DNA from: Pyramidobacter porci
Lineage (GTDB): Bacteria > Synergistota > Synergistia > Synergistales > Dethiosulfovibrionaceae
Reading direction: 5' to 3'
DNA: 64,000 nucleotides
NCBI RefSeq assembly: GCF_009695745.1
Contig: NZ_VUNH01000009.1
Span: 62,001-126,000, forward strand
Shown: in pieces, positions 39,905 through 42,265 of the stretch
How positions within the stretch are numbered: position 1 is the stretch's first letter
Layout: each line of letters opens with the position of its first letter
The notes under the pieces: model-generated
The model's input: only the letters and a program-made list of their open reading frames with translations
What the model was told of the DNA's origin: nothing
Database searches by the model: none
Made by a program: the position numbers and the translations under genes

Positions 39905-39960
39905 GATGTGTGTGTCCGGATCATGCGAAACGGGCGAGATTTCTCTATCGCGAGGGAACG

Positions 39961-41283
39961 ATGATGATCATTGGCGTGATTGGCCCCGAGACAAGTCTGA
40001 AAATCCTGCGGAAAAAGTCGGCGCAATTTTCCGTGCAGCTGATGCCTCTGGCGTATCGGGATTTTCACGAGACGATAAAACTGATCGAGGAAAACGAGAG
40101 GAAGTGCGACGCCCTGCTTTTCACGGGACAGACGCCTTATCTGTACGCGACGTCTCTGCTTCAGCCCGCGGTCCCGTGGGATTTTATGCCGCGCAACATG
40201 CTGTCGACCATGTGCGCGCTCGTCAAGGCGGGACTGAAATATAAAAACAGGATTCAGAACGTCAGCATGGACGGTTTTGGCGATGAGATCATCGAAGAGA
40301 TACGCGAAGAGCTGAAGGGAACCGAAGAAAGCGTGCGGCTGTACAATACCCGCTTTGACATCATGGCCGAAGATTATTTTCAGCGGGTCGTTCAATATCA
40401 TGCGGAAAATTATCGCACCGGCAGGGCGGACCTGTGCGTGACGGGACTGGAGAAAATCTACGAAAAACTCCGGGCAATGGGGATCCCGTCGATCAAGACC
40501 GGCCCGAATTTCTCCCTCCTGCAGCAGAAGCTCCAGTTTTTGCTGCTGAGACATCAGATCACCGCCGCCGAAAGAAACCTTCCCGCGGTGGTCGCGATCC
40601 GGCCGGAATTCCAGCTGAGCCGCGAGATGCACATGCACAACGAGCTGCAGACGCTGAGACTGCAGGCGCAGATCGGCGAGTCCGTTTATTATTTTGCGCA
40701 GCATCTCGGCGGCGCCGTGTTTCAGACGGACGCGACCGATTATTACGTGGCGTGCGATCTGAGGACGCTGATGGCCGAGACGGGGGACTTCACCGGTCTC
40801 AGTCTGCTGCGCATGCCCTTTCGAAATCCCTGCCTGGATAAGATCTCGGCGGGCATCGGCATCGGATATACGGCCCGGGAGGCCCGTTACGCGGCCGACA
40901 AGGCGCAGCAGAGAAGCCGAAAAACCCCGGCATCCTGCTGTTACGGTCTTGACGAGAGGGGGCATTTTTTCGGACCGATCTCGCTGTCGGACGATCCCGA
41001 CGCGAAGGGGCTGTTCAACGAAAATCTGCGCCAGATCTCCGTGCAGACCGGGATTGGGATCAGGTCGCTGAGCAAGATCGAACAGGCCCTTCTGCAATAT
41101 CGAACCGACACGGTCACTTCGTCCGAGCTGGCGCGCTACTGCTCGCTGTCGCTGCGCAGCATGAACAGGCTGCTGCAGAAGCTTGAAGAGTTTCGCTATC
41201 TGGTCGTATTGGGAAAGGAGCCGCAGGACGCGGCAGGCCGTCCGCGGCGGCTTTTGCGCATCGATCTGCGCTATCACGACTGA
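39961..41283 (+). CDS. Predicted transcriptional regulator with C-terminal winged helix; family not recognised
   Basis: This is a 440-residue cytoplasmic protein. The first 200 residues form an alpha/beta sensor-like region (MMIIGVIGPETSLKIL, then LLFTGQTPYLYA). The centre has GIGIGYTAREARYAADKAQ, a strand-turn-helix seen in degenerate GGDEF/cyclase-like domains. The C-terminal 65 residues look like a winged helix (TSSELARYCSLSLRSMNRLLQKLEEF). It is divergent from the transporter and GGT-like genes and probably controls them and itself through the repeats in the shared promoter region. ATG 39961 follows GCGAGGGAACG. A perfect hairpin follows the gene. Confidence 0.65.
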   Translation: MMIIGVIGPETSLKILRKKSAQFSVQLMPLAYRDFHETIKLIEENERKCDALLFTGQTPYLYATSLLQPAVPWDFMPRNMLSTMCALVKAGLKYKNRIQNVSMDGFGDEIIEEIREELKGTEESVRLYNTRFDIMAEDYFQRVVQYHAENYRTGRADLCVTGLEKIYEKLRAMGIPSIKTGPNFSLLQQKLQFLLLRHQITAAERNLPAVVAIRPEFQLSREMHMHNELQTLRLQAQIGESVYYFAQHLGGAVFQTDATDYYVACDLRTLMAETGDFTGLSLLRMPFRNPCLDKISAGIGIGYTAREARYAADKAQQRSRKTPASCCYGLDERGHFFGPISLSDDPDAKGLFNENLRQISVQTGIGIRSLSKIEQALLQYRTDTVTSSELARYCSLSLRSMNRLLQKLEEFRYLVVLGKEPQDAAGRPRRLLRIDLRYHD

Positions 41284-41353
41284 TGGTGATTCCCAATTAA
41301 AATTTTTAAGTGAAAATCGGTATCGAGTTCGTTTTCACGCGGATACGAAAAAA

Positions 41354-41397
41354 GAGACCGTCCCGGCTTGCAGCAGGCCGGGACGGTCTCGTCTTTT
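41354..41397. terminator. Terminator between the regulator and the selenoprotein gene
   Basis: A 14-bp perfect stem (GAGACCGTCCCGGC / GCCGGGACGGTCTC) with a 9-nt loop. It is flanked by A6 on one side and GTCTTTT on the other, so it can serve both convergent genes. Confidence 0.85.
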
Positions 41398-41399
41398 GT

Positions 41400-41738
41400 C
41401 TATGAGGCTGAAAGGACGCCGTCGATAGCGTCTTTCAGTTTTTCCCACGCGGGAATGCCGCGGAAGATCACCTTGCCGTTCAGCACCCAGGTGACTTCGT
41501 CGCCGCGCAGGCGATAGCGCAGCGCGTCGAAAAGAAATACAAAACAGCGCGGGTCGTAAAAGTCGATGTTGAGACGGGAGCCATACTCTTCTTTGAGCTT
41601 CATGTAAAGCTGACCAGCCGCGACGCGGTTGGCTGCACCGGGAAAATGTTTCAGCTCGTTCTCGGTGTAGATGGCTGTGCTTCAGCCGCAGCCTGCGATG
41701 GGGCGTTCACGATAGATCTTGAGTGCCGGCGTTTTCAT
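41400..41738 (-). CDS. Thioredoxin-like protein with in-frame TGA, probable selenoprotein (Sec at residue 19)
   Basis: Reading from ATG 41738, which follows AAAGGAG, gives MKTPALKIYRERPIAGCG, then TGA at 41682-41684, then 93 more codons in the same frame (STAIYTENEL...) to the stop at 41400. Continuous coding on both sides and the position of the TGA two residues after Cys17 (C-G-U) suggest a redox Cys-x-Sec pair, with Sec inserted at the TGA. The rest fits a small thioredoxin-like fold: NIDFYDPR as an inner strand and VTWVLNGKVIFRGIP as the cis-Pro hairpin before a final helix. A shorter protein starting at the internal ATG 41603 would lose the active site. Weak candidate SECIS stems exist after the TGA. 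A nonsense mutation is the alternative. Confidence 0.75.
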
Positions 41739-41779
41739 GGGAAGCTCCTTTCTGCATTTCCAGAAATAAGGTCGGAAGA

Positions 41780-42265
41780 TCATGCCTGAGGGGACGGCTC
41801 TTTCTTGACGGCCGCTTTCTGCCCTTGAGTGTATTCTCGCAGCGTTTCCGGGGCGACGGGGAAGAAGGCGTGGTCGGTGCCGGCCGCGGCCCAGACGATG
41901 GGAAATTTCCACAAATCCTCGTCCAGCAGGGCGGGCAGCGCCTGCGGATAACCGACAGGCGGCACGCCGCCGATTTTGAAACCGAAATTTTCGAAAACGT
42001 AGTCGGGCGAAGCCATGGTGACGCGATGCCCCTGGCTGAGTCGCTTGATTTTGCCCGAATGGACTTTGTTCGGGCCGGACATGAGCACGAGCCACGGCTG
42101 TCCGTCGACCATGAAGATCAGGCTCTTGAGGATTTCGCCCGGCGTCACGCCGATCGCTTTCGAGGCGTCGTCGACGGTGAAGATGGTAGCGTCGCTGTGA
42201 ATAATCTGGCCGTCGTAGTGAAGTTCGTCGAGGGCCTTTTGCACTTTTTCAATGGGATCGTTCAT
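41780..42265 (-). CDS. YbaK/EbsC-type aminoacyl-tRNA deacylase
   Basis: This is a 161-residue protein of the YbaK family, which removes wrongly attached amino acids from tRNA (for example Cys-tRNA(Pro)). The likely catalytic lysine is in GEILKSLIF. The substrate loop GGVPPVGYP and VMSGPNKVHSGKIKRL-like region (LVLMSGPNKV) fit the family. The tail (KAAVKKEPSPQA) is low-complexity. It lies 10 nt downstream of the phosphohexomutase gene and 41 nt upstream of the selenoprotein gene on the same strand, so the three may be one transcript. Confidence 0.87.
   Translation of the reverse strand: MNDPIEKVQKALDELHYDGQIIHSDATIFTVDDASKAIGVTPGEILKSLIFMVDGQPWLVLMSGPNKVHSGKIKRLSQGHRVTMASPDYVFENFGFKIGGVPPVGYPQALPALLDEDLWKFPIVWAAAGTDHAFFPVAPETLREYTQGQKAAVKKEPSPQA

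Follow-up and report, generated by a model that had tools for sequence, protein, structure and literature searches.

A probable thioredoxin-fold selenoprotein of Pyramidobacter and its selenocysteine/cysteine-exchanging family in the Synergistota

A 2026 review recognizes 119 selenoprotein families (PMC13188914), and the Synergistota are already on record as a phylum rich in selenoproteins (PMC5029168, PMC13188914). The closest described systems are Brachyspira Sec.1 and Sec.2, thioredoxin-like selenoproteins of family PF13192 with CxU or UxC motifs (PMC5330540). The protein described here shares with them a small thioredoxin fold, a Sec/Cys residue and a C-x-U arrangement, but it has no PF13192 match, and the best-scoring member of its family reaches E 0.01, below the gathering score. 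The PF13192 proteins of the host genome are three other genes, a PF13192 scan misses the gene under study, and profile comparison between the family and PF13192 proteins aligned the C-terminal half alone, with 37% probability. HUIPC (NF047660) and the MJ0307 thioredoxin (TIGR00411) also belong to the thioredoxin superfamily and are matched weakly by some members (best E values 0.038 and 0.002, respectively), but these matches fall far under the curated cut-offs and the family has no HUIPC/UxxC motif. SaoT (NF040730, UxxC) is likewise a thioredoxin-like selenoprotein of an anaerobe, but its model is not matched by the family, which lacks UxxC. The selenoprotein W-like proteins (PF10262, CxxU) likewise have their Sec in a loop that follows the first strand, and they include mouse SelW, a structural match; however, there is no PF10262 match and CxxU is absent from the family.

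No member reaches the cut-off of any model in Pfam or NCBIfam release 20, a release that includes SaoT, HUIPC and UXX-star. The 119-family review has no matching entry, its sole CxU thioredoxin-like entry being the Brachyspira PF13192 protein (PMC13188914, PMC5330540), and a literature search found no description of this thioredoxin-like family. Judged against Pfam, NCBIfam release 20 and the review, the family, which a preliminary description of this DNA did not recognize either, appears to be uncatalogued. Its kind, the thioredoxin-fold selenoproteins, is well known; the family itself is new.

The window, a stretch of 64,000 nucleotides (C9:62001-126000), belongs to a Pyramidobacter (Synergistota) genome of 2.5 Mb that is 98% complete. 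On its minus strand, a frame running from ATG 41738 to TAG 41400 encodes 112 residues, MKTPALKIYRERPIAGCG-U-STAIYTENELKHFPG...GVLSAS, with a TGA at 41684-41682 as the sole interruption (Table 1). From sequence comparison, this is very probably an undamaged gene whose product is a small selenoprotein with a thioredoxin fold, UGA being read as selenocysteine. The product belongs to a family that spans the Synergistota and exchanges Sec and Cys, and it most likely acts through a redox selenol. The stop-interrupted gene almost certainly encodes an intact selenoprotein, and we infer the insertion of Sec from the comparisons given below. The preliminary description had noticed an apparently truncated gene, starting at 41603, that continues upstream in one frame through a TGA two residues after a cysteine to a well-placed ATG. 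The continuous frame, the position of the TGA in C-G-U-S and the AAAGGAG sequence before ATG 41738, which has no comparable counterpart before 41603, all bear this out. Its figure of 44 codons from the TGA to the internal Met is wrong; the Met is residue 46 and the spacing is 26 codons. The terminator after the TAG is strong, closes the transcript and is bidirectional between convergent genes. A convergent gene for a 457-residue protein (window positions 39910-41283, plus strand), which has no Pfam match at E 0.001, shares it.

Table 1. Features of the selenoprotein locus, in window coordinates
Feature	Coordinates	Strand	Basis or remark
Upstream neighbour, aminoacyl-tRNA editing protein (PF04073)	41780..42265	-	41 nt before the gene
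Ribosome-binding site AAAGGAG	41745..41751	-	6 nt before ATG 41738; from sequence
Complete gene, probable 112-residue thioredoxin-like selenoprotein, Sec at residue 19	41400..41738	-	Open frame with single TGA; Synergistota homologues; purifying selection on both sides
In-frame TGA, U19 in C-G-U-S	41682..41684	-	Column is Sec/Cys in 66/67 members
Predicted SECIS hairpin ..CACCG.GAA..14-nt loop..UUC.CGGUG..	41633..41670	-	Starts about 12 nt after UGA
Internal ATG, Met46	41601..41603	-	Start under table-11 gene calling
Invariant D-P-R (62-64) then Cys65, candidate resolving residue	41544..41555	-	Cys65 found in Sec members only
Intrinsic terminator GAGACCGTCCCGGC..GCCGGGACGGTCTC TTTTTTT	41347..41390	-	Sequence; plus-strand copy also detected

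Homologues are present in 39 of 101 relatives and in 64 of 188 Synergistota genomes. The same TGA occurs in all six Pyramidobacter genomes searched, the five other proteins being 72-92% identical to that of the window. A scan of the genome contigs gave matches in Pyramidobacter only, and no family member was found in the plasmids and viral contigs searched. Exchange of Sec and Cys in one alignment column is a classical selenoprotein signature. Among 67 distinct near-full-length members, 35 have TGA, 31 have Cys and one, a diverged paralogue, has Phe in the column of residue 19, where the preliminary description had suggested looking for Cys or TGA; this column is also one of the eight invariant columns (as Sec/Cys) of a 29-row alignment. 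In a quick tree for which the columns neighbouring this site were left out, the state changes four times, and two of these changes are forced by well-supported branches, giving at least two to four changes. The identical frame with a TGA at the same residue in 6/6 Pyramidobacter genomes and in many others goes far beyond chance.

The family thus described is carried by about one third of the sampled Synergistota genomes and was seemingly missed by both the curated models and the 119-family catalogue, likely because gene callers, meeting a TGA 18 codons from the start, retain a C-terminal stub, and because the domain has no model. It offers a natural Sec/Cys exchange series (35 Sec, 31 Cys) that is useful for studying what Sec is for and how the resolving Cys moves. 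Several genomes pair a Sec member with at least one Cys paralogue (L096 and L103 with L008 in G081; L098 with L009 in G061; L090 with L018 in G029). The diverged Phe copy belongs to a tandem pair of family genes (L116, G086:C78:4361-5414) in a genome without Sec machinery. Two loci in genus g11 genomes that retain Sec machinery, L121 (G049:C9:70432-71042) and L122 (G030:C2:48570-49180), match the initial 37 residues of a Sec member in frame, with the TGA among them, and then diverge; they are apparently decayed copies. One Sec member (L017, G020:C2:56596-56919) has a second TGA at the otherwise invariant Trp84 codon (VTUVMDGK), which would reflect decay, an error in the sequencing or the recoding of a second codon.

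An AlphaFold model built with the family alignment (pLDDT 88, pTM 0.80) has a beta-alpha-beta-alpha-beta-beta-alpha core, and a Foldseek search of the PDB places thioredoxins first (E 3.6e-4, TM about 0.55), in agreement with the thioredoxin fold proposed earlier. Confidence in the model is among its lowest in the loop with residue 19. A sequence search of the PDB gave only spurious helix matches to ribonuclease P. Profile comparison with the Thioredoxin_3 proteins of the genomes aligns the C-terminal strand-hairpin-helix and places the cis-Pro at residue 82. The cis-Pro strand of the preliminary description therefore appears to be present, but its proline, found in most relatives (TEPTW), is replaced by Val82 in Pyramidobacter (DEVTW).

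In thioredoxin folds the redox centre occupies the loop that follows the first strand, and Sec19 is predicted to lie there. Fold and position together suggest that Sec19 would be the redox-centre nucleophile, a selenol that most likely reduces a disulfide, a peroxide or a similar substrate. No CxxC or UxxC motif is present; C-G-U-S in the window protein gives way to CU, UC or UxC elsewhere, so that by lineage the Cys near Sec stands at -2 (CGU), -1 (CU), +1 (UC) or +2 (UxC). A further cysteine, Cys65, is found in 23 of 35 Sec members and in none of the 31 Cys members, counts that are not independent on the tree. The selenylsulfide could be resolved by either of the nearby cysteines, Cys17 or Cys65 after the DPR. 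Sec19 in the redox position, together with the nearby Cys variants and Cys65, favours a selenol-dependent reductase, and the fold and the residue indicate that the family as a whole probably consists of thiol/selenol oxidoreductases. It is conceivable, although on the doubtful side, that a single fixed Sec/Cys relies on a resolving Cys whose place shifts between lineages (-2, -1, +1, +2 or after the DPR), that the family is the founder of a separate thioredoxin-fold clan specific to the anaerobic amino-acid fermenters of the Synergistota and that its substrate goes beyond generic disulfides.

A selenoprotein with a selenium-binding, metal-binding or relay role resembling that of SelW, rather than a catalytic reductase, would also suit some of these features: many Cys members have a single Cys with no nearby partner (VGCV), the partner Cys moves, and mouse SelW is among the Foldseek matches. 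Such a role is unlikely, however, given that most Sec members have an adjacent Cys and that the conserved Glu11, Asp62 and Arg64 and the invariant Trp84 of the alignment would be expected in or near the active-site face.

The catalytic selenoprotein reading must also be weighed against the TGA being a true stop. Gene calling under table 11 yields exactly the products that this would require, an 18-residue peptide and a separate 67-residue protein from 41603. However, the Cys homologues are continuous full-length proteins. The internal ATG has no visible ribosome-binding site before it and falls within the first long helix of the AlphaFold model, so a protein starting there would begin inside a helix and omit the first strand and the active-site loop. 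The region before it is, moreover, under purifying selection in the same frame. For comparisons among the Pyramidobacter species, the gene was divided into the 17 codons preceding the TGA, the 26 codons following it and the remainder. Wherever omega is defined for a pair, it is less than 1 both before and after the TGA. Values are mostly well below 1, ranging from 0.07 to 0.50 in the upstream 17 codons and rising to 0.81 in the short middle stretch (L002-L006 and L004-L006). Termination at this TGA is thus very improbable.

Decoding of the TGA as a sense codon other than Sec, for example as Trp or through near-cognate readthrough, would leave the frame open just as well, since any sense reading does so. 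It is more improbable still, as the homologous residue is Cys and never Trp, and as UGA terminates other genes of the window; TGA is the stop of three of them, so UGA has not become a sense codon in general and there is no global recoding. The host genome in addition holds selABCD and other genes with a Sec UGA. The selA (557 bits) and selB (345 bits) genes adjoin each other about 14 kb to the left of the window, on its contig, a tRNA-Sec with anticodon UCA lies on C3, and selD (342 bits) has an in-frame TGA of its own (SHSSG-U-AAKIGPED; L039, G000:C5:135979-136911), as does grdA. The set of SelA, SelB, SelD and tRNA-Sec, to which the preliminary description had pointed as a check on its reading, is thus complete. 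Among the 101 relatives, selB and/or tRNA-Sec is found in all 22 genomes with the Sec form and neither is found in three genomes with the Cys form alone, an association that by itself is not significant (p 0.066). One single-contig genome (G012, 96% complete) has a Sec member, selB and a TGA-bearing grdA and gives no strong tRNA-Sec match, possibly because its tRNA-Sec is divergent or was lost in filtering. A link to glycine reductase was dropped, since grdA is near-universal in the phylum and its co-occurrence with the family is uninformative.

That the TGA marks a pseudogene or a sequencing error, having replaced TGC or TGT through decay or a mis-call, is barely credible: these Cys codons are one base from TGA and the family does contain decayed copies at other loci (L121, L122), but the TGA is kept with low omega in six Pyramidobacter genomes of differing divergence, and it recurs in many other genera, always with Sec machinery, which excludes an error, while the 17 upstream codons, whose lack of conservation had been named as a possible objection, are conserved.

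Bacterial SECIS elements are poorly conserved, and each gene was therefore tested against its own synonymous recodings, using a 42-nt segment whose start lies 12 nt from the first TGA base. Folding is stronger in the Sec genes than in their recoded versions (mean z -1.54, n=35), whereas Cys genes show no such excess (mean z -0.31, n=31); the difference has a Mann-Whitney p of 9e-6, which overstates independence because the family members are related. The signal is position-specific, the next-best segment along the gene reaching -0.85 at +144. For the gene in the window, z is about -2.5 against synonymous recodings, whereas against dinucleotide shuffles the hairpin is unremarkable (z -0.1 to -1.1). 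All six Pyramidobacter sequences have a common consensus hairpin, and in distant pairs dS tends to be lower in the hairpin-bearing middle stretch than in the rest of the gene (0.46-0.70 versus 0.80-1.07), as expected if synonymous sites are constrained. Of the two stems drawn in the preliminary description, CACCG/CGGUG is supported by the Sec-specific folding signal, but CAGC..GCUG is broken in the sister genomes L002 and L004 and was rejected. No covariation or single base-pair register was found across genera or the family. Rfam gave no SECIS match near the gene; its model RF00031 had no match anywhere, controls included, and is hence uninformative. The comparison supports a hairpin just after the UGA that would help Sec decoding, so that SelB and tRNA-Sec, aided by this element, would decode the UGA as selenocysteine.

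The pairing with the PF04073 neighbour is not kept outside Pyramidobacter, and 21 neighbourhoods of about 20 kb contain nothing common across clades. With no neighbour conserved across clades, genomic context gives no substrate. Only two clades have a recurring GltS-type symporter at a distance of 1-7 kb, which was judged to be a chance association. In genera g26 and g30 (L008, L009, L010 and L064; L074-L076 and L085), a flavodoxin/ferredoxin gene of the EFR1 type precedes the family gene in the same orientation, and MsrA and hydrogenase-like genes lie within 10 kb; these neighbours, all named from their sequences, are a possible functional hint for that clade alone.
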